From Bacteroidota bacterium (GTDB taxonomy: Bacteria; Bacteroidota; Ignavibacteria; Kryptoniales; JAKASW01): DNA of 64,000 bases. Location of the stretch: contig JAJYIT010000023.1 of the NCBI GenBank assembly GCA_021789975.1, positions 1 through 64,000 of the forward strand, written 5' to 3'. Shown here piece after piece: positions 9,848 through 29,679 of the stretch; positions within the stretch are counted from its first letter, which is position 1; each line of letters starts with the position of its first letter. Made by a program: the position numbers and the translations under genes. Below the pieces are notes generated by a model. It was not told the origin of the DNA. It searched no databases and was given only the letters and a program-made list of their open reading frames with translations.

Positions 9848-10293
9848 ATGACTAAGATGAAGTTAGAGCGGCAAGACAGCAAAAGCAACGGAATTAAGTT
9901 GTCAGAGTATGAGAACTACGTTGCAGTTGATTGGTCAAAGTCAAATATGGCGATAGCAAGATTAACGAGGAGTAGAGTTCAGCCAAAAGTGTTGGAACGT
10001 CCGGCAGATATTAGGGAGCTAAAGACATATCTAAAAGGACTGAAAGGCAAGACGATAGTGACAGTAGAAGAGACAATGGTTGCGCACTGGCTGTACTTGG
10101 AGCTTCATGATGTAGTGGACAAGATTTTGATATGCGATCCATACCTGCCTGCCGGCAGGCAGGCCGGAACAAGTTGTTATCGGACGGGCCGAAGATGGAC
10201 AAGATCGATGCTGGAAAGTTGTGCGAGCTATTGAGAGCCGGACTGATGTCAGATAGGCGACTAGTAAACGATACTTCTCACCAAGTCGAGTAA
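9848..10293 (+). pseudogene. IS110-family transposase remnant, frameshifted and truncated
   Basis: N-terminal part of a DEDD-type IS110 transposase/recombinase: VAVDWSKSNMAIARL (first catalytic Asp), TVEETMVAHWL (Glu) and, after a frame change, SDGPKMDKIDAGKLCELL (the DxxKID motif). AAGGAG lies 6 nt before the ATG. Between codons for DPY and RNK a 20-bp palindrome (10145-10164) is inserted and breaks the frame: in frame one the protein runs to 10234, and the true sequence resumes in another frame at 10165 and stops at 10293. The family is usually 300-400 aa, so most of the C-terminal half is missing. Inactive. Confidence 0.8.
10145..10164. repeat. 20-bp palindromic element inserted in transposase gene
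   Basis: CCTGCCTGCCGGCAGGCAGG (10144-10163) is a perfect palindrome. Removing 20 bases (10145-10164) restores a continuous IS110 reading frame across the motif DPYRNKLLSDGPK, so this is a clean insertion. Related arms occur at 5272-5293, and a half copy (GGCGGCAGGCAGGC) occurs near 10468-10481. It behaves like a miniature dispersed palindromic repeat. Confidence 0.8.
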
Positions 10294-13942: not shown

Positions 13943-14827
13943 TTACTGCTTCAACTCGAAATTTTCCTCGATGCTTCCTGATTCGGGAATAATTATGCGG
14001 ACCGACTGGCTCCTGTAGTATCCGTACCATGATCTCAAGATATATTTTCCCGCCGGTAGGTTTCTTATGACATACCTCCCTGTGCTGTCCGTTACAGCGT
14101 AATAAGGATTTTGCAGTGCCACAATCCATGCCTGCATCTCGGGATGTATATCGCAAAGGATCAGAGCGAAGCAACGGGGACTTTTGAAAGTAAAACGCCT
14201 GCTCTTGCCGGGTGCAAACGATCCGAGATTGAAGCTTCCTGCACACTGAGACGGCGTGAAAACATCGTGCAGCACTACATCGCTGTTGAGGAATTCCACC
14301 GTGGTACCTGCGAGTATCGGAAGAACGGCCGGGTTAAATGCAAGATGCCTTTGATCCATGACTGCCGGCTTTTTCGGCGGTACAAAAGTACTATCTACAT
14401 ATTCGACATAGACGACAGCGTTAGCATTGCTGGCTCCTCCGACTACCGTGACCTTTCCCTTAATGTCGCCCGCCAATAAACGGCTTGGAAGCGTGAAAGT
14501 GGGAAGTATGAATCCGATGAAGAAGAAAAATCCCAGGACGGCCGAGGCGCAAGTAAGAGGCCGTCCTACATGATTGCCGGCGTCAGTTCGTCTACGAGAA
14601 TGTAAACGGAGTGCCTTCGTGACGTTCAAACGTTCAGTATAAGTATGCAGAATACCGCACGGCAGAATCGGAAACCTTTCCAGTCTTGAAAGACAGATGT
14701 CCGACAAAAGCATTCGGGAATTACGCCGGTGGTTCTTAGGGACTATGTCCACCACGACACCAGCTTTCGAACAGTCTACGATCAGGCTCGCGAACTTATT
14801 CTCAGTGTTCCCCCGTTGCATTTTCAT
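13943..14827 (-). CDS. Cupredoxin-like periplasmic protein (type-1 copper site, carboxypeptidase-like fold)
   Basis: The conserved part begins after a hydrophobic signal segment (LGFFFFIGFILPTF, about residues 97-110) with GDIKGKVTVVGG. Likely type-1 copper ligands are His in LHDVF, then Cys, His and Met in LCDIHPEM. The C-terminal part (YAVTDSTGRYVIRNLPAGKYILRS, in approximate positions 245-270) is a carboxypeptidase-regulatory-like beta domain. This family occurs beside multiheme respiratory genes as a plastocyanin-like electron carrier. The frame opens at 14827, overlapping the cytochrome gene by 26 bases, but the first 80 or so residues look non-native; the real start is unclear, perhaps a TTG near residue 67. 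It is last in the 22.9-13.9 kb operon. Confidence 0.7.
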   Translation of the reverse strand: MKMQRGNTENKFASLIVDCSKAGVVVDIVPKNHRRNSRMLLSDICLSRLERFPILPCGILHTYTERLNVTKALRLHSRRRTDAGNHVGRPLTCASAVLGFFFFIGFILPTFTLPSRLLAGDIKGKVTVVGGASNANAVVYVEYVDSTFVPPKKPAVMDQRHLAFNPAVLPILAGTTVEFLNSDVVLHDVFTPSQCAGSFNLGSFAPGKSRRFTFKSPRCFALILCDIHPEMQAWIVALQNPYYAVTDSTGRYVIRNLPAGKYILRSWYGYYRSQSVRIIIPESGSIEENFELKQ

Positions 14828-15953
14828 TCACGAAAAGATACAAAGATTTAATGTCATTTGGGAGAAGCTTCGGTAGCTTTTTCCCCCTGGCGACCAAGAT
14901 TTCTTCCATTTGTGAAACATGGTTCCACAGTGCGGCGAGAAATTCATCCTTGTCGCGGTACACCGCAAGCTGTCCGACTGTCGGCGCTTTGAGTTTGTTG
15001 CCCGCGAAGTGACAGTTTGAGCATCCGTCATCTTTGAAAAGACGAGCACCAGCCTCAGCCGATCCTGTCGTTTTCGGTGTGCTGCTGAAATACAAATACG
15101 ATATTACGTCTGCCATCTGGTTATCGGTAAAGAGCGGGAAGGGCTTCTTCATTTGACGCGCCGCGTTTAACATTTTCTCTGAATGGTCCCACATGATACC
15201 AGCTATTTTCATAACGCTTTGGTTTGTGTTTGTCTCATCCAGTCTGGGGCCGATATTTTTCTGCACATGGCAATACTCGCATCCCTTCTCTTTGAACAAC
15301 TTCAACCCGCGGGTCGGATCACCGGGATAAGAGTATATTCTCTCTTCAGTCTTCAACGAGCTGGCCTGCCTTAGATACTCAGCCAGGTCCGCAAACTCGT
15401 TATCCGAAAAGACCGGGAGGCTGACTTTCTTCGAGATACGTCTCCGCTCCATGGCCACGGCATGGTTCCACATTTCCTGAGCCAGCTTCACCGGCGACTT
15501 GAAGACCTTCATGCTATCGAGAGGTATCTTACCGCTCACAGGCATGCCTACCGAATGACATTCTACGCAGTTCTTGCTGACGAACAACTCTTTACCGACC
15601 GATGAATTACCCGGTTGCCCAAGGTAACGAACAAAGTAAAGGAAGTTCGAGAGTTCTCTGAAATCTGTTCCATTGAACTGAGGTCTTTCCGTCCTGGTAC
15701 GCGACATTACCGCCAGCATCTGCTCCGAATGATTCCACATCTTTGATAGAAGGTCATACTCGTCCCCGATGAATACTTGCTTCCCAAAATCCGGAGCCAC
15801 CGTTCCCCCGGTGCCGTTTACTGCATGGCAGTTCAAGCATCCCTGTTTTTCGAGCACTTCCCTTCCTGCCAAAGGGTTCTTCGGCAGCACCTGCGCCATG
15901 GCAACGGCAGACCAGAGAATCAGAACAATCATTTGTCGTATTTTCATTTTCAT
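14802..15953 (-). CDS. Tetraheme c-type cytochrome built of four monoheme-like modules
   Basis: Periplasmic cytochrome c of 383 aa with a signal peptide (1-21, VAMAQ) and four heme motifs, CLNCH, CVECH, CEYCH and CSNCH, spaced about 85-100 residues apart. Each sits in a repeated module containing MWNHSEQM-like text (MWNHAVAM, MWDHSEKM, LWNHVSQM). The conserved His and Met in these repeats may supply distal ligands. The repeat layout suggests gene duplication of a small class I-like cytochrome. It overlaps the preceding small membrane gene by ATGA. It probably passes electrons between the membrane complex encoded upstream and the cupredoxin encoded downstream. Confidence 0.85.
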   Translation of the reverse strand: MKMKIRQMIVLILWSAVAMAQVLPKNPLAGREVLEKQGCLNCHAVNGTGGTVAPDFGKQVFIGDEYDLLSKMWNHSEQMLAVMSRTRTERPQFNGTDFRELSNFLYFVRYLGQPGNSSVGKELFVSKNCVECHSVGMPVSGKIPLDSMKVFKSPVKLAQEMWNHAVAMERRRISKKVSLPVFSDNEFADLAEYLRQASSLKTEERIYSYPGDPTRGLKLFKEKGCEYCHVQKNIGPRLDETNTNQSVMKIAGIMWDHSEKMLNAARQMKKPFPLFTDNQMADVISYLYFSSTPKTTGSAEAGARLFKDDGCSNCHFAGNKLKAPTVGQLAVYRDKDEFLAALWNHVSQMEEILVARGKKLPKLLPNDIKSLYLFVNENATGEH

Positions 15954-16177
15954 GCCTCTTTCCTGTGCAGACTAAAGAAGACATAGGACAGGACACCGGC
16001 AAGTATCCAGAACACGGTGATTGCAAGTATGCTTATCCATAACGAAGCAGTCTGCGCATCCTTGACCTGGTTGGCGATGATTACGAGATGCACGAACCAC
16101 CATGTTACTCCGATCGCGAGTAACCAGTTGAACGAAAGCGTGATGAGCTGGATGGTAAAAACCTTTTTATCACTCAT
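15950..16177 (-). CDS. Small two-helix membrane protein of the NrfD operon
   Basis: Protein of 75 aa with two hydrophobic segments (about 8-32 and 45-67) and a short basic tail. I do not recognise a named family. It sits between the NrfD-type gene (11-base gap) and the tetraheme cytochrome gene (ATGA overlap), so it is probably a small subunit or assembly factor of the membrane complex, comparable in position to small subunits of alternative complex III. That role is inferred from location only. Confidence 0.6.
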   Translation of the reverse strand: MSDKKVFTIQLITLSFNWLLAIGVTWWFVHLVIIANQVKDAQTASLWISILAITVFWILAGVLSYVFFSLHRKEA

Positions 16178-16188
16178 GTCGTTGCCTC

Positions 16189-17553
16189 TTATATCTCTGC
16201 TTTTACCGACGCTTCAACGCCGGCTTCATCTCTCTGTCCGGGCAGGTAATCCCGCAGCCGCATGGAGACTTCATGTATGCTGTGCTCCCGCCCTTCTTTA
16301 GTCTCCCAGATCGAAATAAGCGGAAACAACTTTGAGAACCCCATGAAGCCAAGCACGAATGCCGATGTAGCTGCAGCAGCTATTCCCAGCTCCGTGATGG
16401 ACGGGACGTACATTCCCGTCGGGTATGGGAGTCTCGGGTTCGCGAGCGTCGGTATGATAATGATAAGCCTTTCAAGCCACATCCCGATAACGACTCCGAT
16501 TGACGCAACCAGGATGCCGGGAATCGTCTTCGTTTTCTTGTTGCTCAGTATAACAATCGGTAAAAGGAAATTGCAGAACACCATGGCCCAGAAGAACGGT
16601 GCATACGCACCTATAAACTTATACAAGAACACTCTCATCTCTGCTGGCTCATGCCCGTAAAAAGTTGTCAGGAATTCAGCGAACGTGAAGTAGGTCCAGA
16701 GCAGAGCCACGACAAGAAGAAGTGTTCCCAGATATCTGAAGTGGATTTCTTTCAGATAGTCTTCAAAGTGGAATATTTTCCTGAACGTGACCATGACAAT
16801 GACAAGCGCGGCGATTCCCGAGTAAATTGCACCTACCACGAAATATGGCCCGAAGATAGTGCTGTGCCAGCCGGGCTGAAGTGTCATTCCGAAAATCCAC
16901 GCGATGATGGTGTGTACCGAAACAGCAATAGGTATGACCATCACCATTAGAATGTTTATTGCTCTCTCCAGTGCGTGCTTCTGTCTCGGAGTGCCTTTGT
17001 ACCCCCACGCGAGTATCCTGTAGAAATTGTGTAGTTTACCCCCCCTGTCGCGCAGGAGCGCGATGTCGGGTATCATGGGCACGTACAAATAGATCGTCGA
17101 CGCTGTGAAGTAAGCAGTGACGCTGGTCAGATCCCACAAGAGCGGCGACTGCAGCCTGCCTCTCTCGAACAAATGCAGGATCCTGTCCGGCCTGCCAAGA
17201 TCGATGATCGGATGCAAACCGCCGATGGCAAGAACGATTCCGGTTATGACTTCTGCCATTCTCGTGATGGGCCGTCGCCATTCGGCTTTCGAGAGTCGAA
17301 GAATGGCAGAAATCAATGTGCCGGCATGGGAGATACCGATGAAGAAGACGAAGTCCACGATGTAGAATGCCCAGGAAACCGGCTCGTCCATCCCGGTTGC
17401 ACCGAGGCCGTAGAAAAGTTGATGGATGTAGCAGCCCAGTCCAAATAGGAAGACTGCCGCCAGAGCGATTACGACGACATAGAACGTTCTGCTTGTTTGG
17501 TATATCGGTCTGAAGAGGACTTCATCTTCATCGTGCAGGTCTTGGTAACTCAT
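16189..17553 (-). CDS. NrfD/ActC-type quinone-interacting membrane subunit
   Basis: Integral membrane protein of 454 aa with about ten transmembrane helices. It belongs to the NrfD/PsrC superfamily, as shown by FFIGISHAGTLISAILRL, GGLHPIIDLGRPDRILHLF and the cytoplasmic ending KLFPLISIWETKEG. Its size and sequence style match ActC of alternative complex III and related ten-helix members rather than the shorter NrfD. It should bind menaquinone or menaquinol at the inner membrane and pass electrons to or from the ferredoxin subunit encoded immediately upstream (16-base gap). Confidence 0.88.
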   Translation of the reverse strand: MSYQDLHDEDEVLFRPIYQTSRTFYVVVIALAAVFLFGLGCYIHQLFYGLGATGMDEPVSWAFYIVDFVFFIGISHAGTLISAILRLSKAEWRRPITRMAEVITGIVLAIGGLHPIIDLGRPDRILHLFERGRLQSPLLWDLTSVTAYFTASTIYLYVPMIPDIALLRDRGGKLHNFYRILAWGYKGTPRQKHALERAINILMVMVIPIAVSVHTIIAWIFGMTLQPGWHSTIFGPYFVVGAIYSGIAALVIVMVTFRKIFHFEDYLKEIHFRYLGTLLLVVALLWTYFTFAEFLTTFYGHEPAEMRVFLYKFIGAYAPFFWAMVFCNFLLPIVILSNKKTKTIPGILVASIGVVIGMWLERLIIIIPTLANPRLPYPTGMYVPSITELGIAAAATSAFVLGFMGFSKLFPLISIWETKEGREHSIHEVSMRLRDYLPGQRDEAGVEASVKAEI

Positions 17554-17569
17554 AACTCGATTTCCTCGT

Positions 17570-18256
17570 TCATTCTATAGCATTCAGATAGCGAACCTTC
17601 GGGACGGTACCCAGCTCCTCCAGTAGACCGAATGCGCGGTAGTCTCGCGAGGCTTTCGTTACTTCGCTCTTCGGATCGTCCAGGTCGCCGAATGTGATCG
17701 CGTCGACCGGACAGACTTCGACGCATGCAGGCACATAATCACCCGGCTCGAGCTTCCTGTGCTCGACCGCCGCCTTTTCGGAAGCCTTTTGAAGACGCTG
17801 AATACAGAAGGTGCATTTCTCGACGACGCCTTTCGGGCGAACCGAAACGTCCGGGTCGTAGGTTTTCTCCATCTGGACCGGTTGCGCCTGCCTGTCCCAA
17901 TTGAAGACCTTCACTGTGTAGGGACAATTGGCCATACAGTAACGGCAGCCGATGCACTGTGGGTAGATCTGTGCCACGATACCATCGGGCCTCTTGTAAG
18001 TTGCCCTGACCGGACAGACTTTTATACAAGACGGCTCGTCGCACTGCATGCAGTTTCGAGGCAAAGCCTTGGGCCTGATGTTAGGATAGTCGCCGTCGAA
18101 TTCCAGCGTCAGCATTTTCATCCAGAACATCGCCCTCCCGTTCTGCGCATCATCCTCCGAGACAATCTGAACATTGTTCTCCAATTTGCAGGCTGTGACG
18201 CATGCCTGGCAGGAAGTGCATTTGTTCAGGTCTATCATCATTCCATATTTCGGCAT
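17570..18256 (-). CDS. Four-cluster [4Fe-4S] ferredoxin subunit (PsrB/ActB type)
   Basis: Iron-sulfur protein of 228 aa without a signal peptide. The cysteine motifs are CTSCQACVTAC, CMQCDEPSCIKVCP, CIGCRYCMANCP and KCTFC with a later CVEVCP, the standard four-cluster set of DMSO-reductase-type electron transfer subunits. It should be exported folded with the Tat-dependent large subunit encoded upstream (7-base gap) and link it to the NrfD-type membrane subunit. In alternative complex III this module is fused to the molybdopterin-like part; here they are separate genes. Confidence 0.92.
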   Translation of the reverse strand: MPKYGMMIDLNKCTSCQACVTACKLENNVQIVSEDDAQNGRAMFWMKMLTLEFDGDYPNIRPKALPRNCMQCDEPSCIKVCPVRATYKRPDGIVAQIYPQCIGCRYCMANCPYTVKVFNWDRQAQPVQMEKTYDPDVSVRPKGVVEKCTFCIQRLQKASEKAAVEHRKLEPGDYVPACVEVCPVDAITFGDLDDPKSEVTKASRDYRAFGLLEELGTVPKVRYLNAIE

Positions 18257-18263
18257 GATCTTC

Positions 18264-20420
18264 TCACTCTATCTTGACGCTTGTTTCTGATAGTGATGGC
18301 GTTCCCGTCGCCTCGTCGAACACATAGTCCGCATAATCGATCGGATTGATCCCGTACTTCTTCTCGGTGAATTTGTGGCCGAGGCCGAACGGGACATCGA
18401 TATTGGAAGGCACGACGGTTGGATTGTGGATGGCAGTTGCCACGAAGGATCCTCTTCGGGTTTGTACTCTTACCTTGGTTCTGTCACCAACCGACAACTT
18501 CTTTGCGGTGTTCGGATTTATTTCGATCCAGGTATCGTAATAGACATCTCGCTCGACCCCGAACTGCTCCGTGAGAGCCGCATTCCTCAACATGTTTCCC
18601 TTATAATCAAGATTCTTGGAAAAGATGTTGAGGGTTAGAGAATCGGCATCGTGCGTTTTCTTTTCGCTGCTCGCACTACCCTTCCCGGTCAGCTGGCTCG
18701 CACTTAATGACAGAGTGGGCGAGAACTGTTCCACTTTAGGAAATGGATCCCACCATCCACCATATTTCAGCATTTGGTCCCAGAACTCATCAAAATCAGA
18801 GTAGGAAGTCAATTGCCACCCGGCTTCGTGCAGACTCTTTTCCAGGCCTGTCGGCTTTTTCTGGGCCATCAGCATCCCCTTGCCGTGTTTATAGACCGGT
18901 TTCAAATTCGCGCGAAGATAGTCCACATAATTTCCGTACGGCAAATCTTTTGAGAGATTCAGGTCGTGCATCAGAGATATGAGCACGTCGCCGGTATGTG
19001 TGGTAGCGTAGAAAGGCTTCACCACCGGCCGCTGAACACTGACTACAGGTGCTCCGGTAACCGTTGAACTCATGGCGTCGAATTTCTCGAAGTCATCATG
19101 GTCGGGTATAATCAAATTGGCAAGTTCTGTGGTCTCATCTATAAACGGAGAAAAGGACACAACAAGCGGAATGTTCGAAATCGCTTTCCTGAGGTCTTCT
19201 GAATTGGGAGAATTAAAGATGAAGTTGCTTCGGTAGATCAACAGCACCTTGAGATCGGCATCTCCAATTAACCTGCTTGTGTTCCATGACGCACTTGCAG
19301 CATCCGATTTCGTTTTGTCATCACCCGGAATCTCCCGGGTCTGCAGTTTTCCATAGCCACTGAATCCCCTCAAGGCATTCAATGCGAGCACCGCATAAGC
19401 GTTTCGTGTGCCATTGGATGATTGCAGGATGGATTCGTCAAAATAAGCAACCGGCGAAGTTGCGCTCGCAAATTCCCGCGCCGTGGCTATGATGTCTTTT
19501 GATGGTACTCCGGTCTTTTTTTCTACATCCGCTGGGCTGTAGTCTTCCAGGATGAGTTGGCGAAAACTACCAAAGTCGTTGAAATTCTTTTGAACGAACC
19601 CCTTGTCGTATGTGCCATCGTTCAAGATGACGCAGGCAAGACCGAGAGCGACATCTTCATAAAACTCGGGCAATACCGGTATCCACGGTTTCGATTTGAA
19701 AGCGCTCGGAGTCAGTTTCGGAGAAAAAGTAACAATGCTGCCGCGTTTCGACCTGAGGTCGTTGACCGCACGAGAGAAGAACAACGGGCTTTCGGAAATC
19801 TCTGTCAGTTGCGAACCGAAGTTAATGATTAAATCACAGCGACTGAAGTCGATAAAATCCGGATAATCGTCCGCGGCACTGCGGTATGGCAGAACTGTTT
19901 TGGAGCCAAATCTGTCTATAGCGACCTTTTCAGATTTCAGGCTTTGTGTGAAGTCGTGAATAAGGCGTCCCATGAAGTCCGACTCCGCCTGAGCAACGAA
20001 AGCGGTTTTCTCTCCAGAATTGTCCTGAAGCGCTTTCGAAAGAATGCCGTAAGCTTCATGGTACGATACCTTCTGAAACTTCCCGTTGACTTTCCTCATT
20101 GGAGAAGTAAGTCGATCAGGGTGATACAAGTTTTGGATGGAAGTCAATCCCATCGGACAGATTCCACCGGCGTTGATCGGGGAGAGCGGATTGCCGAAGA
20201 CCTGGACAGGCAGATCGTCGATCATCCTGACGCGGAGACCGCAATGACCCGGGCACTTCGCGCATGTGGTGATTTTCCATGTTTCAATGCGAGGTCCCTT
20301 GTAGAGTATCGGCACCACGGCATTCGGAATTTTGATAAGTGCCTCGCCCAAGCCGCCGACAGCAAACCCCGCCAGCGAACCGCCAAGAAGTTTTACGAAG
20401 TTTCGTCTACTTATATGCAT
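18264..20420 (-). CDS. Molybdopterin oxidoreductase-family large subunit with Tat signal
   Basis: Protein of about 718 aa in the complex iron-sulfur molybdoenzyme family. The start at 20420 gives MHISRRNFVKLLGGSLAG, a Tat signal. An ATG 16 codons upstream (20468) would overlap the cytochrome gene and is less likely. A [4Fe-4S] motif follows (CAKCPGHC, then GGICPMG). The middle and C-terminal regions keep the molybdopterin-binding fold, including the late IEINPNTAKKLSVGDRTKVRV segment of the dinucleotide-binding domain. I cannot tell whether molybdenum is bound: the homologous part of alternative complex III (ActB) has lost the cofactor. Context (pentaheme ActA-like gene before it, FeS and NrfD genes after it) favours an ACIII-like quinol-linked complex. 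Confidence 0.85.
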   Translation of the reverse strand: MHISRRNFVKLLGGSLAGFAVGGLGEALIKIPNAVVPILYKGPRIETWKITTCAKCPGHCGLRVRMIDDLPVQVFGNPLSPINAGGICPMGLTSIQNLYHPDRLTSPMRKVNGKFQKVSYHEAYGILSKALQDNSGEKTAFVAQAESDFMGRLIHDFTQSLKSEKVAIDRFGSKTVLPYRSAADDYPDFIDFSRCDLIINFGSQLTEISESPLFFSRAVNDLRSKRGSIVTFSPKLTPSAFKSKPWIPVLPEFYEDVALGLACVILNDGTYDKGFVQKNFNDFGSFRQLILEDYSPADVEKKTGVPSKDIIATAREFASATSPVAYFDESILQSSNGTRNAYAVLALNALRGFSGYGKLQTREIPGDDKTKSDAASASWNTSRLIGDADLKVLLIYRSNFIFNSPNSEDLRKAISNIPLVVSFSPFIDETTELANLIIPDHDDFEKFDAMSSTVTGAPVVSVQRPVVKPFYATTHTGDVLISLMHDLNLSKDLPYGNYVDYLRANLKPVYKHGKGMLMAQKKPTGLEKSLHEAGWQLTSYSDFDEFWDQMLKYGGWWDPFPKVEQFSPTLSLSASQLTGKGSASSEKKTHDADSLTLNIFSKNLDYKGNMLRNAALTEQFGVERDVYYDTWIEINPNTAKKLSVGDRTKVRVQTRRGSFVATAIHNPTVVPSNIDVPFGLGHKFTEKKYGINPIDYADYVFDEATGTPSLSETSVKIE

Positions 20421-20430
20421 TGGGAATTTC

Positions 20431-20940
20431 TCATCGGTGACAGTGTGAACAATCTGTAGTGACGCCATGCTTTACGTGGCAATTCCAGCAATTCTGCATC
20501 TTGATCTGCAGGAACTGCGTCTTCGGCGGCGAAGTCAAGGCAGCCATATCACCATGGCACAGCTTGCAGTCTAACTTGCCAAGAAGGACGTGCCTTCGAT
20601 GCGAGAAGTACACGTAGTCGGGAACGTGGTAAATCGAGTACCAGGGTATCTGTTTGTGCTGTGAAACGTATTTGTAAACCAGCAGTTCCTGCGGCGTTTT
20701 TTTCATTGGTGTCGAATGGCACGCGCCGCAGACCTCGATATTCGGGATTCCTGCACTCGCGCGCATCATCACACCCTGGTGGCACGCCATGCAAGGGATT
20801 TTGTACTTCCCGGCATGGACCGCATGGCTGAAATCAATCGGCTGGACAAAGCTTTCCCTCCGACCAACCAGATAATTGACCAGGACAATCCCTGCCAGAA
20901 ATCCCACGGCAATAGCAACAAGCATCAGGTATTTCTTCAT
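20431..20940 (-). CDS. Pentaheme c-type cytochrome (ActA-like)
   Basis: Membrane-anchored cytochrome of 169 aa with an N-terminal helix (about 5-25, LMLVAIAVGFLAGIVLVNYL) and five heme motifs: CMACH, CGACH, CKLCH, CWNCH and CSHCH. FSHAVH and FSHRRH provide typical distal histidines of cytochrome c3/c7-like domains. ActA of alternative complex III is also a membrane-anchored pentaheme protein placed just before the molybdopterin-like gene, as here (10-base gap). It should carry electrons between the membrane complex and periplasmic acceptors or donors. Confidence 0.88.
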   Translation of the reverse strand: MKKYLMLVAIAVGFLAGIVLVNYLVGRRESFVQPIDFSHAVHAGKYKIPCMACHQGVMMRASAGIPNIEVCGACHSTPMKKTPQELLVYKYVSQHKQIPWYSIYHVPDYVYFSHRRHVLLGKLDCKLCHGDMAALTSPPKTQFLQIKMQNCWNCHVKHGVTTDCSHCHR

Positions 20941-21052
20941 GTCAGTAAGTTAGCTGCCTAAGTCAACTGCAACTCACCCGCCAGAAATAAAAGTCCGGAC
21001 ACGTGGCGCGAAAAAGATGAGTCGAAGTTTTTTAGGCAGCCTTAGCCTTTCC

Positions 21053-21472
21053 TTATTCGATTGTCCTCAGGAACTCCAGCACCGCACGCGCCTGATCCTT
21101 CGTCAAATTCTGATCGGGCATCTCTGGAACGTTGGAGAATTTCTTGATCAGTGCTTTAACATTGGGATCTTTCTCCTGCATCACCGCGGTGTTCAACAGG
21201 TAGTTCATAATGAATTCAGGGGTTCGCTTCTTTGCGATCCCGCGGAGCGGCGGCGCCATCTTCGTCTGGTTAACGCTATGGCACAAGTAACATTGGGAAT
21301 AGAAGATCGATTTGCCTTCGTCAACCAGGCTCTGATCGATCTTGCCTAACTTCACGTTCTTGATCGGTCCTATACCATTGTCGACGGCGGCTTTCTTCCC
21401 TTGAGGTAAGAACCCCATCATGACAAATACCATCACGGACAAAAAGAACGTAGAGACCATTGTCTTTTTCAT
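21053..21472 (-). CDS. Periplasmic monoheme cytochrome c
   Basis: Small class I cytochrome c of 139 aa with a signal peptide (about 1-22), the heme motif CYLCH and a likely axial Met in NVPEMPDQNLT. It begins 13 bases after the Cyc2-like heme-porin gene. In iron-oxidising bacteria a periplasmic cytochrome commonly takes electrons from Cyc2, so this is a candidate shuttle between the outer-membrane heme-porin and the pentaheme/NrfD complex encoded 112 bases further on. Confidence 0.85.
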   Translation of the reverse strand: MKKTMVSTFFLSVMVFVMMGFLPQGKKAAVDNGIGPIKNVKLGKIDQSLVDEGKSIFYSQCYLCHSVNQTKMAPPLRGIAKKRTPEFIMNYLLNTAVMQEKDPNVKALIKKFSNVPEMPDQNLTKDQARAVLEFLRTIE

Positions 21473-21485
21473 TTTAAATTTCCTT

Positions 21486-22850
21486 TTAAAAGGCGAACCA
21501 TGTTAGTAAGTAAAGCGTGTTATTATCGGAGGCATTTCTTCCAAAATCATCGTAATTCGTCGAGCCTCCGTTGAATTCCGAGTACGCGACATACTGGAGA
21601 GTAAATTGAGTATTGAGCCACGGTATATAAGACAACTGGCCGATGATGCCGCTGCTGTTCGGCGAGCCGTTTGCGCTTCCCGTGACAGCGCCTGGTGCGT
21701 AGAGCACCGGATCGGTCTTGCCGCTGGTCGTGAAGTATCCCAACGCCACGGCGAATGGAGCAGAAAAATTATAGTTTGCGTCTACCTTGAACATATTGAG
21801 GGTGAGACTGTTTGAGGACGAACCGCCTCCAACATAAGTCGCGTTGAGACTTTGGTTCTCGGTAATGTAACTCGCGTGAGCGATCAGCTCACCGCCGCCC
21901 AGCGCATTCTCATACTGCGCATCAAATCCCACATCGGTATATTTGTCGGTCGGCCCAGAGATCCCGGCAGGAAATACGCCGGTCGCCAAACCGAATGTTC
22001 CCACTTCAATATACTGTTTACTCCAACTGTGCTGCAGTGCCACTCGCCAGTAAGGCGACACACCCTTTATATTGTCTGTCCAGGTGTTGTCGGCGGGATA
22101 TGAAACACCCTGAATCGCAGAATGATACCCACTCACGCCAACATAAAGGAGGTTGTCGTACAACCCGTACACTCCGAGTCCGAGCACGTTTCCGGAGAAA
22201 GCGCCGTCGATGATGGGCGACCAACTCGGCGTAGGTGCAGAGGCAGATGAAGCGTAAGGGAATCCCCATGCCGGCGTTGAATTCCAGACGTCTTCCATAG
22301 TCGGATTATTGTTAAGAGTGATTCCGTACAGCAAGTCCTTGCCGGCAAGCATCGTGTGGTTGGCATATCTGAACTCCGCCATATCCATGCCGATTGTCCC
22401 TGCTGATGGATCGTAAGTGAGCTGAATGTATGAACCGAGATTCGGAGTCAACTCACCGGACAGGAAAAAGCTGAGTTGTTGTGGGAATTGCGTGGCACTT
22501 GCTTCCGCACCCGGCGTTGCTTTGCTAACCGCAGTGTAAGAAGACATAACCATGGCGCTGAACGGAAAGTCCTTGAGTATCTGTAAATCTTTGCTCTTAT
22601 CATGGGACGCAACCAGAGTTGGAGATCCGACCATGGTGTATCCGTTCAGCTTGAACAACCTGCCGAACGGCGTCAGTTGAGGAAAGTTGTAATGACAGGC
22701 GCTGCACGCCAGTCCGGTTTGCCGTGCGTAGCTTGGTATCGCATAGCTGTTTGAACTTGATAGAATCACGACAGCCCCGATTAGAGCCACCACGAGCATA
22801 AGACTCCGCCCGGTTGCATCAGCCGGGTTGTACCTCGTTCGTAGTTTCAC
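21486..22850 (-). CDS. Cyc2-like outer-membrane monoheme cytochrome-porin
   Basis: Predicted outer-membrane protein of 454 aa. A signal peptide (about 1-37) is followed at once by YARQTGLACSACHYNFPQL, with heme motif C49-S-A-C52-H53, and by TPFGRLFKLNGYTM; the rest is rich in alternating beta-strand sequence ending in aromatic FAF, consistent with a porin-type barrel. Cyc2 iron oxidases have this order: ARQTG, CxxCH, FGRxFKxxGYT, then a barrel of about 400 aa. The wider family also includes proteins not shown to oxidise iron, so function is inferred. It is the first gene of the electron-transfer operon. A paralogue lies at 38443-39918. Confidence 0.75.
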   Translation of the reverse strand: MKLRTRYNPADATGRSLMLVVALIGAVVILSSSNSYAIPSYARQTGLACSACHYNFPQLTPFGRLFKLNGYTMVGSPTLVASHDKSKDLQILKDFPFSAMVMSSYTAVSKATPGAEASATQFPQQLSFFLSGELTPNLGSYIQLTYDPSAGTIGMDMAEFRYANHTMLAGKDLLYGITLNNNPTMEDVWNSTPAWGFPYASSASAPTPSWSPIIDGAFSGNVLGLGVYGLYDNLLYVGVSGYHSAIQGVSYPADNTWTDNIKGVSPYWRVALQHSWSKQYIEVGTFGLATGVFPAGISGPTDKYTDVGFDAQYENALGGGELIAHASYITENQSLNATYVGGGSSSNSLTLNMFKVDANYNFSAPFAVALGYFTTSGKTDPVLYAPGAVTGSANGSPNSSGIIGQLSYIPWLNTQFTLQYVAYSEFNGGSTNYDDFGRNASDNNTLYLLTWFAF

Positions 22851-22904: not shown

Positions 22905-23285
22905 CTAGCTTGTCTTACACACTCGCAATGAGTGCCGCACAGCCTCCTGAAGCTCTTTCAATTCCAGAGGCTTCAGGAGCACGCGCTCGACACCGTACGA
23001 TTTCAATTCCGACTCGCTCGCCGTATCAGGATACCCGGTTATGACAATAATCGGAGTTTTGGTCTGCAGTCGCCTCGCATGAATTATGAAGGTGACTCCC
23101 GATTCGAGATTCAACCTGAGGTCCGTGATGAGGAGATCGAATTTTTCATTCTCCAATCTCAGCAAAGCCTCCCTGGTAGTGGGAGCAGCTATCATAGCAC
23201 ACCCCTCCCCTTTCAGGAAATCCCGAAACGCAAGAAGGATGTTTTTGTCGTCATCCAGAACAAGAACTCTAGGCTTGCGGGTCAC
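22905..23285 (-). CDS. Single-domain response regulator (receiver only)
   Basis: CheY-like receiver of 126 aa: acidic pocket LDDDKN, phospho-acceptor Asp in LLITDLRL, Thr in IVITGYP and the conserved Lys in LLKPLEL. It has no output domain, so it should act as a phosphorelay intermediate or by protein contact. It lies 54 bases upstream of the Cyc2-like gene and just after the sensor kinase gene, which makes the kinase its probable partner and the electron-transfer operon a probable target. Confidence 0.85.
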   Translation of the reverse strand: MTRKPRVLVLDDDKNILLAFRDFLKGEGCAMIAAPTTREALLRLENEKFDLLITDLRLNLESGVTFIIHARRLQTKTPIIVITGYPDTASESELKSYGVERVLLKPLELKELQEAVRHSLRVCKTS

Positions 23286-23501
23286 GATGGTGCATGATTC
23301 TTACATTCCACTGCAATGGCCGTGCCGGCGAATGGAAAGCGTTTACTGATTATTCTATGGATTTCTGGAGGTTCTTACTCAGTCAGAAGCCAATGTGACA
23401 AGCGGCGCTTGCAGAGTGGAAAGTGAAAGTGGCACGTACCAAGTGATGAAGGTTCTCTTCAGCCCGGTCTGTCGAGGAGCTGAAGTAATATTTTGTGAGC
23501 C

Positions 23502-25907
23502 CTATGCAACCCCGACGCTGACTGTCGGATGCACAAGCGGCAGGAGAATCCTGAATTTCGTGCCGACTCCCGGTTTACTCTCGACAGCAACTATTCCCCC
23601 GTGACCGTTGACGACTCGCTTCGCCATGGATAGACCAAGCCCCGTCCCATTGGGCTTAGTTGTGAAGAACGGATCAAAAATCCTGGAAATGTTCGTCTTC
23701 GTGATCCCGGGACCGGTATCTGCAATTTCAATTTGAACGCATTCGGTTCCCTTCTTGAGAACGATTTCTTCGAGGTCGGTGTGATCGTCGGGCGATGTCT
23801 CAGTCATTTCCACATACATAAAATCCCGGAGCGTCTTCCCGATTTTAGTCCGCCCGGTGACTATTGTGATCGACGAGTTTTGTTCCGTCAACGCGGGAAG
23901 GGATTGTGGAGAGATGTTTCTTTCTTCAATTGCCTGAACCGCATTGAAGACGACGTTCACGAGTGCTTCCCGCAAATGCACAACGTCGACCATCAAATCA
24001 GGAATTGTCACATCCGGATTATTCTCGATGGTCACACGAGATTTCTCGGCCCTTAGTTTCACGAATGCGATGCTCTCCTCTACTACATGGTTGACCGATG
24101 ACAGGCGGAAATCCATCTTGGTGGGCCGGGCAAATCCGAGAAGCTCAGAGACAGTGGTCTCCATACGATATGCTGAATTAAGCGCCACCGTCAGGGACTC
24201 CTTCTTCGACCTATCGAGGTCATCCGATTCATTGAACAACTGAAGTATCATCTTGATTGAAGTAAGCGAGTTCCGAAACTCGTGGGCGATGAAAGCGGCA
24301 AGCTCGCCCATCGTTGCAAGTTTTTCGGTCTTGAGCAGATGCTGCTCGAGTTTCTTCCGGCTGGTCACGTCGGTTACAATCTCAAGGACAGCCTCGACTT
24401 TCCCATCCTTCTGCATCGGGACCGAGAAGTGCTCGATGAATCTATCCGTCCCGTCCGGTCCTACAATACGGTCCAGGTGCCCTTCGGATTTGCCGGACAG
24501 CACCACTCCGCGGCTCACGCACTTCTGACAAAATCCCGCCTTGCAAAAGAAATCACAACAGACTTTGCCGATGACCTCTTCCGGTTGGTAGCCGGTCACC
24601 TTACCAAGCGCCGCGCTAACCGATTGTATTTTCAAATCCCGGTCAAGGACCAGCAGTGCACTTGGGACGTTGTCGAGTATGGTTTGAAGCTTCGACTTCT
24701 GCTCTCGAAGCTCCGCTGTTCTCTCAGTGACTTCTTTCTCCAGGCTCACTTTATGATCCATCAGCTCGCGGTCTCGTACCAGGATCGAGTCGGCCATGGC
24801 ATTGAACTGGTCTGCAAGTTTTTCGATCTCGTCTCTTGTCTCAATCTTCAGTCTATGCTCGTAGTTTCCGCCGGAAATGATTTCTGCGCCCCGGCTCAAC
24901 TCCTCAATCGGCCTAGTAAACTGGTTTGTAGCTACGAGGCTCAGCGTGACTGACAGGACAAGGACCCCCAGAATGGCAGCGCCGAAAGCAAAAGAGACAA
25001 AATAGGCAGGCCTCATCAATACTGCCTTTGGAATGGTCTCTATAACGAAGAGTGGAATCGAAAACCCCGCCTTTTCATCTCCGCTGTTGGGTGCTGTATT
25101 CTTTGAAAAGAGAGGGGCGTATGAGACCACTTCACCGATACCTTTCGTGATGATGCCGGCCATCCCTGAAAGCAGCTTCGCCGAAACCGAACGAGAGTAA
25201 TCATTGTCGATGCTTTCTCCGGTCGTGATGAACAGCTTTTTCCAATCTCTCCTCTTTTGAGAGTCGTACAAAAAATGCCCATCCCCGCTCACCAACATCA
25301 CTCTGCTGGAGTAGCTCCGCGGGGAGGCAGACGCCATGACCTGAAAGAAAGTCGATGCAAAAACATCTGCAACCAGAATACCGACACGTTTGTCATGAAA
25401 GTAGAGGGATGTCGCGAAACTTACCACCGCGACGCGGCCCAGCTGCTCGTTCGGAACTTCCGCCGGTGAAAAGGCTGTCTGGTCCTTTTTCAACATTCCG
25501 GTAAGGAACACGTAGTAATATTCGCTTGTCCGGCTGAGTTTTCCGCGGGGAGTGACGGCAAAGCCTCCAATGCCAAACTTTCCCGATGTAGACTGCGCTC
25601 GCAAAAGGTCCAACCCGTTTGCATCGAGAATTCTGACGCGATAGTAGATCTGTTTTGTCCGCTCAAAATCCAGGAGCTCAGCTTCCAGAGAGCTAACTGA
25701 CCCGTATCGTGGAGCACCACGCTCTGCCAGTTGCCGTTCAAGCTCTTTGATTTGATAGGAATCGGCAAGAAATCTCAAGTCTGTCTCCACACCCGACAGG
25801 AAATCACTCGCGCGCTGCCGGACCAGCGCTACATCCTGGTCCAGGTTCCGCGTGGCAGTGTTCACCAAACTTCCTGCAGTCGACCACACAGCAAACACTC
25901 CGACCAA
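23502..25907 (-). CDS. Membrane sensor histidine kinase (periplasmic sensor, HAMP, Cys-rich PAS)
   Basis: Kinase of 801 aa from the TTG at 25907. Order: periplasmic Cache-like sensor (about 15-295), transmembrane helix (300-325), HAMP (327-380), PAS (405-515), HisKA with AHEFRNSLTS (H542), and an HATPase domain with DTGPGI and GTGLGLSM. The PAS domain holds five cysteines in one stretch (C450, C451, C455, C460, C463). Coding sequence continues upstream of the TTG in the same frame through a clear first membrane helix (TKLIIAFSGISIVPIALVG) to just after the regulator stop codon, so the true start is probably near 25994, where ATT follows AAGGTG. It likely phosphorylates the NtrC-type regulator upstream and/or the receiver protein downstream. 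Confidence 0.88.
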   Translation of the reverse strand: MVGVFAVWSTAGSLVNTATRNLDQDVALVRQRASDFLSGVETDLRFLADSYQIKELERQLAERGAPRYGSVSSLEAELLDFERTKQIYYRVRILDANGLDLLRAQSTSGKFGIGGFAVTPRGKLSRTSEYYYVFLTGMLKKDQTAFSPAEVPNEQLGRVAVVSFATSLYFHDKRVGILVADVFASTFFQVMASASPRSYSSRVMLVSGDGHFLYDSQKRRDWKKLFITTGESIDNDYSRSVSAKLLSGMAGIITKGIGEVVSYAPLFSKNTAPNSGDEKAGFSIPLFVIETIPKAVLMRPAYFVSFAFGAAILGVLVLSVTLSLVATNQFTRPIEELSRGAEIISGGNYEHRLKIETRDEIEKLADQFNAMADSILVRDRELMDHKVSLEKEVTERTAELREQKSKLQTILDNVPSALLVLDRDLKIQSVSAALGKVTGYQPEEVIGKVCCDFFCKAGFCQKCVSRGVVLSGKSEGHLDRIVGPDGTDRFIEHFSVPMQKDGKVEAVLEIVTDVTSRKKLEQHLLKTEKLATMGELAAFIAHEFRNSLTSIKMILQLFNESDDLDRSKKESLTVALNSAYRMETTVSELLGFARPTKMDFRLSSVNHVVEESIAFVKLRAEKSRVTIENNPDVTIPDLMVDVVHLREALVNVVFNAVQAIEERNISPQSLPALTEQNSSITIVTGRTKIGKTLRDFMYVEMTETSPDDHTDLEEIVLKKGTECVQIEIADTGPGITKTNISRIFDPFFTTKPNGTGLGLSMAKRVVNGHGGIVAVESKPGVGTKFRILLPLVHPTVSVGVA

Positions 25908-25996
25908 AGCAATCGGAACGATTGAAATGCCTGAAAAAGCTATGATCAGCTTGGTCCTGATCGATAGCCAGGAAAAGAGACGATTGACGTTAATAT

Positions 25997-27403
25997 CTAC
26001 ACCTTTTTCCTGAAGTCGTTGGGATTGATTCCGTGCTTGGAGAGCAATCGCTGAAAATTCTGCCTCGTCATGCCCGATGACTGCGCTGCTGCAACCACGT
26101 TTCCCTTGAACTCCCTCATAGCTTCCGTAACGAATCCTTTTTCAAAATCGTCGATGATTCGATTTCTTGCCCCGGCAAACTTTCCGGCAGCATGGGATCC
26201 ATCTCCGTTCAAATGAGTCCCCACAGATTCCTCGAGTGCAGGTGAGGTTATCACATCTTCTTTTGCGAGGATTACCGCGCGCTCCACGATATTCTCAAGC
26301 TCGCGGACATTTCCCGGATACATCTGTGCGGCAAGGAACCGGACGGCGTCTTCCGAGAAAGCTGTAACTTTCTTTCTAAACTTCTCGGAATACTTGGCAA
26401 GGAAGTAGTTTGCAAGGATTGGAATATCTTCTCGACGCTCGCGTAGCGGCGGAAGGCTTATGACCATCACGTTCAGCCTGTAAAAGAGATCTTTCCTGAA
26501 ATCTCCCTTCTTCACCTCGTCTTCGATATTCTTGTTCGTCGCGGCGATAAACCGTGCTCCAACTTCGAGTGTTTGGTTCGACCCCAACCTCTCGAACTGC
26601 CGCTCCTGGAGAACCCGTAGAAACTTTTGCTGAAGCAACAGCGACAGGTCACCGATCTCATCGAGAAAAATCGTCCCGTTCTTCGCAGCTTCGAATTTTC
26701 CGGGCTTCGTATCGGTGGCACCCGTGAAAGCTCCTTTTTCATATCCAAAAAGCTCGGACTCCAGAAGTGTCTCCGGCACAGCCGTGCAATTTACCGCTAC
26801 AAATGGCTGACTGGAATTAGGTCCGTATCCGTGAATTGCCCTCGCTACAAGCTCTTTGCCTGTACCACTTTCCCCGAGAAGGAGGACGGGAGTTAGATTT
26901 GGCGTGGTCGAGACTGAGCCGATCAGTTTGTAAATGTTTTGCATCCCCGAACTTTTCCCGACGAGCTCGTAGCGGTCGGTGAACTCCGCTTTGATGGCCT
27001 GTGTCGAATTTCTTGCGGCACCAATCGCTTCGAGTCGTGCAATTGCCTCGGCTGTAACTTTTCTGACTTGCTGGATGTCCAGCGGCTTTGTCAGGTAATC
27101 GAAAGCTCCGAACTGCATTGCACGAACTGCAGTTTCGACAGTCCCATATCCCGTAATCATGATCACCGGGACAGATGGGTACGTCGCTTTGATTTCTTTG
27201 ATTGTATCGAGGCCATTCATCCCGGGCATATTTATGTCGAGAAAGACCAACGTTGGTTTCTCAGCGGGAAGGAGACTCAAACCTGAGATTGCTTCCGGAG
27301 CACTTGCGACTCCGTACCCGTCCTTCAGAAATAGCTGCCTCAGGGCAAAGACTATTCCCTCGTCATCATCAATTATGAGTATTTTGTGCTTCGCTCGCTC
27401 CAT
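25997..27403 (-). CDS. NtrC-family sigma-54-dependent response regulator
   Basis: Regulator of 468 aa: receiver domain (1-120, Asp in VFLDINMPG), sigma-54 interaction AAA+ domain (about 145-385, Walker A GESGTGKE, the GAFTGA loop contacting sigma-54, and GTIFLDEIGDL), and a C-terminal Fis-type helix-turn-helix (AAAQSSGMTRQNFQRLLSKHGI, in part). It is first in an operon with the kinase. Targets are likely the flanking cytochrome operons, but I found no clear -24/-12 promoter upstream of them. Confidence 0.93.
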   Translation of the reverse strand: MERAKHKILIIDDDEGIVFALRQLFLKDGYGVASAPEAISGLSLLPAEKPTLVFLDINMPGMNGLDTIKEIKATYPSVPVIMITGYGTVETAVRAMQFGAFDYLTKPLDIQQVRKVTAEAIARLEAIGAARNSTQAIKAEFTDRYELVGKSSGMQNIYKLIGSVSTTPNLTPVLLLGESGTGKELVARAIHGYGPNSSQPFVAVNCTAVPETLLESELFGYEKGAFTGATDTKPGKFEAAKNGTIFLDEIGDLSLLLQQKFLRVLQERQFERLGSNQTLEVGARFIAATNKNIEDEVKKGDFRKDLFYRLNVMVISLPPLRERREDIPILANYFLAKYSEKFRKKVTAFSEDAVRFLAAQMYPGNVRELENIVERAVILAKEDVITSPALEESVGTHLNGDGSHAAGKFAGARNRIIDDFEKGFVTEAMREFKGNVVAAAQSSGMTRQNFQRLLSKHGINPNDFRKKV

Positions 27404-27640: not shown

Positions 27641-28207
27641 TTATTCTTCTTTCAGGGGATGGGCAATTTTCGCACTGTAGGTCTTGAAATCAAACCCGTG
27701 ATAAAACGGACTCTCCTGGTTGTGACACCGGAGACACACAGCTTCTGTCGGAAGACGCAATCCCACTGAATCTGCATCGATCGTATTTGCATGAATACCC
27801 TTCATTGTTGCCATTTTCCAGTAGTCTGCTCCGGCTCCATGGCACGATTCGCATTGGACGCCTGCGGTGGAATCGAATCCTGTTTCGAACATCGAAGCGG
27901 GCAACCCATACCCTGTCTCGTGACACTTCAGACATTCAGGTGACTTCTGTGGATCACAGATGCCGAGTTTTGCTGCGACAGCCTTCGCGGTATCCGACGC
28001 CAAATCTTTGTACGCCATCGCGTGCTTCGAAGCTTCCCAGATTTTGTACTGTGCACCGATCTTCTCCGTCGAATGACACATCTTGCATTTCTGTGCTCCG
28101 ACAAATTTATGTGTCCCGGTTGTGGCACGTGCCGATTGCCCAAATGTTGCAGATGCACCACAGATCAACATGAGCACTACTGTCAACAGCGGCAGGAACA
28201 TTTTCAT
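27641..28207 (-). CDS. Tetraheme c-type cytochrome (c554-like)
   Basis: Periplasmic cytochrome of 188 aa with a signal peptide (1-23) and four heme motifs, CKMCH, CLKCH, CESCH and CLRCH. The pattern HKFVGAQKCKMCHSTEKIG and GVQCESCHGAGADYW is that of the cytochrome c554-like family. It overlaps the end of the 11-heme gene by ATGA and closes the Rieske/cytochrome b operon. It is probably a soluble electron partner of that complex. Confidence 0.88.
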   Translation of the reverse strand: MKMFLPLLTVVLMLICGASATFGQSARATTGTHKFVGAQKCKMCHSTEKIGAQYKIWEASKHAMAYKDLASDTAKAVAAKLGICDPQKSPECLKCHETGYGLPASMFETGFDSTAGVQCESCHGAGADYWKMATMKGIHANTIDADSVGLRLPTEAVCLRCHNQESPFYHGFDFKTYSAKIAHPLKEE

Positions 28208-29679
28208 TTTTCTGATCTCCTTTCAATTTGCTTGATCTTCAAAAACAGAAGGACCGCCAACGCGGTGATTATCAATGTTGCAACGCCGAGCCCTTCTCTT
28301 CGGAAGTAATATTCTTTGATTTCACCAAGGGCGCTGACTTGGGCATTCCCCACTATCTTCAGTCCCGGTTCAGCCGCGGATTTCACAAGCGAGGCATTGA
28401 AGGAGTGAACTTGCACTCGACTCTCGACAAGCGATTGATTCACATCTTTTAGGGAGTAGCTTGCATCCGAGACGTCCATACCGAGTTGTTCAGCATGTCC
28501 GAGAAGGCTCTCTGCATCGGTCCGTCCAACGGTCAGGCTGTCAAGAGTTGCTTGTATTGCAAGTATGGAACTCGCAGCAGAGTCAGTGGGGACATCTTTA
28601 TGGCATTTTCCACATACGGATTCAGGACCGAATCCTATCATCGTGTCAGACGGCTGCCGGACAAGATGATTGCTATGGCAAACCACGCAGCCGGGAAGAT
28701 TTGATTTTGCAAAAGCAGCTCGATGAACGCTCTTGTCGAACAGGTCTGAATTTGCCTGGTGGCAGGTGCCGCAGACCGAAGCGACGGAGGAAGCTCCCGG
28801 CGGCACTGCACCATGGTTCCCGTGGCATGAGTTGCATGCCGGAGCGCTCAAATCGGAATTCTGTAGAAGGGCAATCCCGTGGACGCTCTGTTTGTAATCG
28901 GCATATTGATTTGTGGGTATGTTGTATTGAGCCATGTACGATTTGTCGCTGTGACATTTGGCACAAGTCCGGGGAATATTCATCGGATATACAGGTGACC
29001 GTGGGTCCTTGACGGAACGAATAAGATGGTTCGAGTGACAACTCACGCACGTCGCGGGCTTCGGATCTCCGGCTTTGTTGAGTTTGCCATGCACGCTTGT
29101 AAGATATTTCTCATACTGATCCACAGGCAGTCCCGGATTGAATTTCTTCATATAATCCGGATCGCTGTGGCACTTCGCACAGGTTTTGGTGACGTTGGTC
29201 GGGTAAACCGGCGACTTGACGCTGTTTATGTCTAAAATATTGTGTATACCATGACAGGAAATGCACGTTGGCCCCTTGCTACTTTGCGAGAGTGCTCTTC
29301 CGTGGACACTCGCAAGGAACTCGTCCATCACATCATCGAGGTGGTACGCAGTTTTGAATGTTGATTTCTCTGATCCATGACATTTCCCGCACATTTCCGG
29401 TATAGAAGACGGCTTCGGGACACCGACATAGCCTTTCTTCGGATTCATTGCGGCGTCCTGATCTTCAACGGTTGGGTCGCCGCCGTGGCAGTCTGCACAA
29501 GTGACTCCCGCCTTGTAGTGAATGTCGGTCATGTAGGCCGTTGCTTCATCGCTGCCGATATCGGTGTGGCAACTGAGACACTTATCCACCGGCTTCATTG
29601 TCTGTCCGCTCGCGCCGACCACGGCGAACAAGGTGAACGTGCACCACACAACCAGGAGGAGTCTAATCATTTTCATCAT
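28204..29679 (-). CDS. Undecaheme membrane-anchored cytochrome c
   Basis: Multiheme cytochrome of 491 aa from the ATG at 29679, which overlaps the cytochrome b stop as TGATG and is preceded by AAGG. An open frame runs 77 codons further upstream but lies over the cytochrome b gene. A signal peptide (VVWCTFTLFAVVGASGQ) precedes eleven CxxCH motifs: CLSCH, CADCH, CGKCH, CISCH, CAKCH, CVSCH, CAKCH, CNSCH, CGTCH, CVVCH, CGKCH. A helical linker and a C-terminal transmembrane helix (LGVATLIITALAVLLFL) end the protein. Such NrfB/NapC-unlike multiheme chains beside a cytochrome bc complex occur in metal-reducing and anammox-type bacteria. Confidence 0.9.
   Translation of the reverse strand: MMKMIRLLLVVWCTFTLFAVVGASGQTMKPVDKCLSCHTDIGSDEATAYMTDIHYKAGVTCADCHGGDPTVEDQDAAMNPKKGYVGVPKPSSIPEMCGKCHGSEKSTFKTAYHLDDVMDEFLASVHGRALSQSSKGPTCISCHGIHNILDINSVKSPVYPTNVTKTCAKCHSDPDYMKKFNPGLPVDQYEKYLTSVHGKLNKAGDPKPATCVSCHSNHLIRSVKDPRSPVYPMNIPRTCAKCHSDKSYMAQYNIPTNQYADYKQSVHGIALLQNSDLSAPACNSCHGNHGAVPPGASSVASVCGTCHQANSDLFDKSVHRAAFAKSNLPGCVVCHSNHLVRQPSDTMIGFGPESVCGKCHKDVPTDSAASSILAIQATLDSLTVGRTDAESLLGHAEQLGMDVSDASYSLKDVNQSLVESRVQVHSFNASLVKSAAEPGLKIVGNAQVSALGEIKEYYFRREGLGVATLIITALAVLLFLKIKQIERRSEK

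Follow-up and report, generated by a model that had tools for sequence, protein, structure and literature searches.

How do electrons pass from Cyc2, the fused monoheme cytochrome-porin of neutrophilic iron oxidisers, to the quinone pool? For neutrophilic iron oxidation this has not been settled; alternative complex III (ACIII) and bc1 have both been proposed as partners of Cyc2, in neither case with gene linkage, and the placement of ACIII has been called highly speculative (PMC4643136). The question is raised by an operon in the 64,000-nucleotide stretch of DNA analysed computationally here ("the window"; positions 1 to 64,000, forward strand, of contig JAJYIT010000023.1, assembly GCA_021789975.1), which comes from an uncultured bacterium of the Kryptoniales (Bacteroidota, Ignavibacteria). 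There the gene for a Cyc2-type porin stands in one operon with those for a complete quinone oxidoreductase, and in a congener a related cassette has a Rieske-cytochrome b pair in the same slot. We consider it probable that the operon encodes a porin-to-quinone electron conduit across the cell envelope, with interchangeable inner complexes; it is a defined, expressible set of proteins with which the Cyc2-to-quinone route could be tested.

The operon and its conservation

Nine open reading frames (ORFs) lie on the minus strand from 22850 down to 13943 and encode, in that order, the porin, a cytochrome c, a pentaheme cytochrome (subunit A), a molybdopterin-oxidoreductase-like protein (B1), a ferredoxin (B2), an NrfD-type protein (C), a small membrane protein, a four-domain cytochrome and a cupredoxin; the gaps between them are -38 to +112 bp, mostly 7–16 bp or small overlaps. 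This is the closely spaced, co-directional order given by the original prediction, which was made from the sequence alone, and the operon does, as was claimed there, encode a candidate for every step of a path from the outer membrane to the quinone pool.

The same order, extended upstream by receiver, NtrC-like regulator and sensor kinase genes, is shared by congeneric species and by three genomes from a second family, with identities to the window operon of 76–92% for NrfD, 45–68% for B1 and 55–83% for the porin. Because it recurs in other species at 45–92% identity, the nine-gene order is far beyond chance. We call loci in which the kinase, regulators, porin and complex are linked type A; some of their contigs are short (e.g. 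G305, G310 and G445), and not every gene is visible in each genome. A variant in a third family (L122) has the kinase and regulators, a more distant porin, and the cupredoxin, pentaheme, B1, B2, C and four-domain cytochrome genes. Another form, type B, has no porin and runs small-c4-pentaheme-B1-B2-C, accompanied by Rieske, cytochrome b and 6-, 11- and 13-heme cytochrome genes. No ActD/ActF-type genes were found in the operon of the type A loci examined, as had been predicted for the window. The genome also carries a separate, complete canonical actABCDEF-cox operon on contig C71; the window complex is therefore an additional one.

The heme motif counts (one in the porin, one in the cytochrome c, five in a class III/c7-type cytochrome and four in the four-domain cytochrome), the iron-sulfur (FeS) and NrfD proteins and the protein exported by twin-arginine translocation (Tat) are those originally reported. 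The exception is the "tetraheme" cytochrome, which a family search resolves into four tandem class I monoheme domains. The 454-amino acid porin (21486–22850) is followed by a periplasmic monoheme class I cytochrome c (21053–21472; PF00034, 1.7e-9), whose gene sits next to that of the porin across type A loci and many Bacteroidota relatives and which is the probable first carrier from the porin. Subunit A (20431–20940) is a membrane-anchored pentaheme cytochrome of the ActA/QrcA type with five CXXCH motifs, and matches ActA structures at E 1e-21 to 1e-14. B1 (18264–20468; PF00384, PF04879, PF01568) has, by reading of its sequence, the Tat motif SRRNFVK and the FS0-type motif CX2CX3CX27C. B2 (17570–18256) is a four-cluster ferredoxin with 16 cysteines in four motifs, one of them CIGCRYC rather than CIGTRYC, and C (16189–17553) is an NrfD/ActC-type quinone-site subunit, residues 21–419 of which align with ActC of ACIII (E 1.7e-68, Protein Data Bank (PDB) sequence search). 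The small membrane protein (15950–16177; 75 amino acids) found no match in a Pfam search and is conserved with the complex: type A loci, and most of type B, have a homologue at the corresponding position. The four-domain cytochrome (14802–15953; PF00034, 2.5e-18) is likewise kept with the complex in both types. The last gene (13943–14827) encodes an exported cupredoxin with a carboxypeptidase-regulatory-like domain (PF13620), a weak plastocyanin match and, by sequence reading, the copper-ligand pattern H...C-DI-H-PE-M; its ORF and the preceding gene share 26 bp, and the start given here may not be the true one. Homologues of it adjoin porins at other loci.

Affinities of the porin and the inner-membrane complex

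A motif AXPXFAR[Q/K][T/Y] ahead of CXXCH is unique to Cyc2 (PMC8406198). The porin has the string AIPSYARQT-GLA-CSACH-YNF-PQL, which differs from that motif by one conservative F to Y change, and the type A relatives of the second family have AIPSFARQT. Its single CXXCH (CSACH), downstream PXL (PQL) and length of 454 amino acids (at least 365 is the Cyc2 minimum) are also those of Cyc2. An AlphaFold2 model has 16 barrel strands at a mean predicted local distance difference test score (pLDDT) of 81, with low confidence in the heme region (32–50), and solved 16-strand porins match the protein, OprO and OprP among them (OmpF-type porins also match), as reported for Cyc2; the single-heme 16-strand barrel that the original prediction had proposed as a check is thus what is modelled, behind an N-terminal cytochrome. 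By motif, size and predicted fold the porin is of the Cyc2 type, although no model in Pfam or NCBIfam searches names it. At least 581 relatives turned up in a scan of named genomes, and Bacteroidota, Gemmatimonadota, Acidobacteriota and Proteobacteria account for the best 80; plasmids of Caballeronia, Acidiphilium, Acidithiobacillus and Methylocystis also carry full-length relatives, with a c-type cytochrome gene next in line.

The operon had been taken to encode an ACIII with its ActB split into two genes, and this identification does not stand. The best NCBIfam models for A, B1 and B2 are those of Qrc, all under cut-off, and those for C are DsrP and QrcD, both weak; against the QrcA–D equivalogs the four subunits score 98.8 (NF041781), 226.8, 270.1 and 41.1 bits, none reaching the respective cut-offs of 180, 440, 400 and 570. 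In the PDB sequence search the matches of C and B2 are to ACIII. A tree was built for each of C, B2 and B1, with references consisting of Qrc from the phylum of a deltaproteobacterial relative, split actAB1B2CDEF from gammaproteobacteria and canonical ACIII; each gives three groups: Qrc, crown ACIII, and type A plus type B (joined by G307 in all three trees and by G483 in those of C and B1). The type A and B sequences fall outside the Qrc clade in all three trees and outside crown ACIII in those of B1 and B2; in the C tree they are sister to crown ACIII with full support and the Qrc branch is very long, and in the B2 tree the order of the three groups is unresolved. The C tree rules out QrcD as the closest NrfD of subunit C. 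When other complex iron-sulfur molybdoenzymes (CISM) are added, B1 stays in the ACIII-Qrc branch, apart from them (Shimodaira-Hasegawa approximate likelihood ratio test (SH-aLRT) 99); the added sequences were chosen by profile matches and include some ACIII and type A/B members, and the conclusion rests on the six that fall outside. Judged by these trees, the complex is a separate third lineage in the ACIII-Qrc branch, not an ACIII. At three other loci (L036 in G120, L104 and L110) a fused ActB has a B1 half closer to the unfused forms, and these may be intermediates in ActB fusion.

Individual residues also set the complex apart. Subunit C keeps all 13 N-side and five of the six P-side channel residues of Rhodothermus marinus ActC (channel and quinone-site residues as listed in PMC8076601), and only two ACIII channel residues, Tyr176 and Arg395, are common to the Qrc rows. 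At the quinone site Ser136 and Asp141 are kept, His139 is replaced by Asp118 (a position that is Asp or Glu in Qrc) and Asp253 by Ile220. The third motif of B2 is C[IV]G[TS] in every crown ACIII row and has a Cys in types A and B and in Qrc; the complex has four cysteines here, where ACIII has a [3Fe-4S] motif. The complex has the pentaheme A, Mo-like/FeS B (as two genes) and NrfD-type C of ACIII but not its His139/Asp253 quinone site or [3Fe-4S] cysteine loss, and it shares with Qrc the gene order A-B1-B2-C and a B1 with no conserved Mo ligand. In a residue table of the B1 family the Mo-ligand position has no Cys or selenocysteine and no conserved residue, and B1 probably serves as a scaffold and has no Mo active site. 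A B1 model predicted from five sequences had a pLDDT of only 46.8 and was set aside as too poor. Internal stop codons flagged in the B1 genes of relatives were considered as possible selenocysteine codons; in G286 this reading fails because the TGA precedes the start codon, and in the other relatives with flagged stops the B1 ORFs are open.

The nearest published parallel is the co-occurrence of actAB1B2CDEF and cyc2 in the neutrophilic iron oxidisers Ferriphaselus and Mariprofundus (PMC4643136, PMC5566968), where a Cyc2-type porin, a pentaheme A, separate B1 and B2 and an ActC-type C are proposed to cooperate. The FS0 motif of iron-oxidiser ActB1 is identical to that of B1 (PMC4643136), so a split ActB by itself is not new; nor is Cyc2 in Ignavibacteriales (PMC8478452, PMC6344600). 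In the iron oxidisers, however, cyc2 and act are separate loci with actD, E and F present (Ferriphaselus table), whereas here there is one operon with no ActD or ActF, a complex of another clade with Asp for the quinone-site His and with CIGCRYC, and a porin outside the Cluster-1-type clade. QrcABCD, the menaquinone reductase of sulfate reducers (PMC6303296, PMC13059093), resembles the window complex in its order of multiheme c, cofactor-less Mo-family, FeS and NrfD proteins, in the CIGCRYC-type motif and quinone-site Asp, and in supplying the best models for A, B1 and B2; the window complex differs in its sub-cut-off scores, its ActC-type NrfD with ACIII channel residues and its separate clade, and no porin or cupredoxin was seen in the Qrc loci examined. 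The canonical ACIII of Bacteroidota (6f0k, 6btm) has homologous A, B and C and the proton-channel residues, but its ActB is fused, ActDEF are present, the motif is the [3Fe-4S]-type CIGTRYC and the quinone site is His/Asp. The layout had been suggested to be new, and in this respect the single operon, the third lineage and the exchange of complexes were not found in the open-access papers searched, which is weak evidence of absence; a search there for operons linking cyc2 with NrfD turned up other gene clusters.

Complexes beside the porin and the direction of electron flow

The complex is not the only one to stand next to this porin. A second cassette (L313) in the congener G319 reads kinase-NtrC-receiver-porin-cytochrome c-Rieske-cytochrome b-cupredoxin, with identities to the window of 43% (kinase), 55% (NtrC), 61% (porin), 57% (cytochrome c) and 52% (cupredoxin). 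In four congeners in which no B1 was found, the porin and cytochrome c genes have a cox operon and a divergent Rieske-cytochrome b pair as neighbours. Among the 76 porins with a readable ORF in the best 80 named loci of at least 581 relatives, 30 lie within 7 kb of a quinone oxidoreductase encoded on the same strand (21 Rieske/cytochrome b, six with a molybdopterin-type subunit and three FeS-NrfD); by our judgement, not by computation, the chance level is about a percent. The Rieske/cytochrome b cases are mostly from Acidobacteria, the FeS-NrfD cases from Bacteroidales and the B1-type cases from Bacteroidota and Acidobacteria. An acidobacterial operon (L194/L281) encodes a porin, cupredoxin, pentaheme, B1, B2, C, ActD-like protein and cytochrome c, and its complex falls in the crown ACIII clade in the trees; if these are right, the porin has joined complexes of the ACIII superfamily at least twice. 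In gammaproteobacteria a Cyc2-family porin is present in 15 of 32 genomes with a B1 match (split ACIII where the locus was read) and in two of 32 without (Fisher p 4e-4, uncorrected for relatedness). The shared slot argues that these complexes do a common job, which would be electron exchange between the porin-linked cytochrome c and the quinone pool.

Three Bacteroidales operons (L195, L199 and L200) have the order FeS-NrfD-cytochrome-porin-cytochrome c and no molybdopterin subunit, and look like a simpler porin-linked quinone module. Recurring Bacteroidota clusters (L035, L037–L040 and L042) combine an FeS protein, an ActC-like NrfD and a monoheme cytochrome, also without a molybdopterin subunit. 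Near a porin paralogue, L206 has a 1253-amino acid ORF (722–4483) with, by eye, a Cas9-like N-terminus.

In the conduit that we consider probable, an extracellular reductant, of which Fe(II) is the obvious candidate, would reduce the one heme of the 16-strand porin, located at its mouth; soluble carriers (the monoheme cytochrome c, the four-domain cytochrome and the cupredoxin) would take the electrons across the periplasm to the membrane-anchored pentaheme, and the four-cluster ferredoxin would hand them on to quinone, on the periplasmic side of the NrfD subunit. Since the NrfD subunit keeps the ACIII proton-channel residues, turnover of quinone may be linked to the movement of protons, with proton motive force made or spent. 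Uptake is the favoured direction because tested Cyc2 proteins are Fe(II) oxidases (in vitro activity is reported for a Cluster-1 Cyc2, PMC8406198), because the porin cluster of the congeners adjoins a terminal oxidase and because the quinone site and quinone-side cluster motif resemble those of the quinone reductase Qrc; Asp118 and Ile220 of NrfD and CIGCRYC of the ferredoxin are in effect a residue-level prediction of the direction of the complex. More tentatively, and with rather less confidence than in the conduit itself, we suggest that the third lineage is a dedicated partner of the Cyc2-type porin which reduces quinone with extracellular electrons, possibly powered by proton motive force, and that Cyc2-type porins generally have a plug-in slot for Rieske-cytochrome b, NrfCD and ACIII-like complexes.

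Several observations weigh against such an uptake conduit. The porin has no CHF[QE]x[FY]P signature and in a quick tree falls outside the Cluster-1-type clade (SH-aLRT 99; the references were Chlorobi-like and gammaproteobacterial porins bearing that signature, which was assigned by reading of the sequences, not with the published or FeGenie hidden Markov models), so the original description as Cyc2-like holds for motif, size and predicted fold and not for membership of the neutrophilic iron-oxidiser clade. For Cyc2 proteins that do not belong to Cluster 1, the function is less certain (PMC8406198). The porin occurs without the complex in congeners, and 46 of the 76 porins have no same-strand complex nearby, several of them on short contigs. 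RuBisCO was not found in this genome (other carbon-fixation pathways were not searched), and Ignavibacteriales are described as heterotrophs, some of them Fe(III) reducers (PMC8478452, PMC6344600).

Some of these points bear on the reverse flow, in which the complex oxidises quinol and passes the electrons, by way of the pentaheme, the soluble carriers and the porin, to an extracellular acceptor such as Fe(III) or humics. The retained ActC-type proton channel would suit it, ACIII being a quinol oxidase (PMC8076601), as would the missing RuBisCO, the relatives of Fe(III) reducers among the Ignavibacteria (PMC6344600) and the type B relatives, in which Rieske-cytochrome b and 11-, 13- and 19-heme cytochromes accompany the complex; but the tested Cyc2 proteins oxidise Fe(II) (PMC8406198), the porin clusters of congeners adjoin a cox operon, and the quinone-site Asp and CIGCRYC are common to the quinone reductase Qrc and not to ACIII, so we regard an outward conduit as unlikely. 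We think it improbable that the complex is an ordinary periplasmic quinol:cytochrome c or cytochrome c:quinone oxidoreductase and that the porin serves metal sensing or uptake with no through-wire: the occurrence of the porin without the complex in congeners, and of type B complexes without a porin, agrees with this, but the single short-gap operon conserved in several species of two families, the Rieske-cytochrome b swap within the same cassette and the separate pairing with an ACIII-type complex in the acidobacterial L194/L281 do not. Finally, a dedicated polysulfide, arsenate or nitrate reductase with B1 as its active site is very improbable, since, although the best solved-structure matches of B1 are FdhF, ArrA and PsrA-type proteins and its FS0 Cys motif is kept, B1 has neither a conserved Mo ligand nor the catalytic-clade placement of Psr/Arr/Fdh-type CISM and its partner is a pentaheme as in ACIII and Qrc.

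Regulatory genes and neighbouring clusters

The conserved unit extends upstream of the operon (22905–27403, all on the minus strand) to a receiver-domain protein ahead of the porin (22905–23285; PF00072), which type A loci and the swapped cassette L313 share, a Cache-HAMP-PAS, NtrB-like sensor histidine kinase (23502–25907) and an NtrC-like sigma-54 response regulator (25997–27403; PF00158, 9e-67). The linked kinase and sigma-54 regulator presumably set expression of the operon. Scanned under a strict consensus for sigma-54 promoters ahead of the porin, the type A loci yielded no site at all, which is not evidence either way.

Beyond these, and also on the minus strand, is a co-directional cluster (27641–31209) encoding a Rieske protein (30763–31209), cytochrome b (29679–30752), an 11-heme cytochrome (28204–29679) and a 4-heme cytochrome (27641–28207). 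Among the type A loci examined it is present in this genome only, and in relatives from other families its homologues are joined to the type B complex. This cluster (27.6–31.2 kb) and the type B relatives are, we take it, like the inner-membrane cytochrome bc and multiheme clusters of Fe(III) reducers; the likeness lies in the Rieske, cytochrome b and multiheme cytochromes, and type B has no porin.

A second porin with the Cyc2 motif (38443–39918; 491 amino acids, AIPSYSRQTGLSCATCH) is distant from the operon porin (about 80 bits) and has similar copies in several congeners. A third, of the ARKY type, is on contig C77 of G000 (L076, 9094–11378) beside a homologue of the operon cupredoxin and a diheme protein, and L079 has a similar pairing. 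Downstream of the second porin, two regions (42736–45450 and 50563–54382) were read by eye as encoding a P-type ATPase, probably for heavy metals and YHS-like at its N-terminus, along with membrane proteins and small proteins of metal-binding appearance; these may function in copper handling. On the other side of the operon, a short ORF (9848–10234) resembles by eye the N-terminus of an IS110-type transposase and is possibly a remnant.

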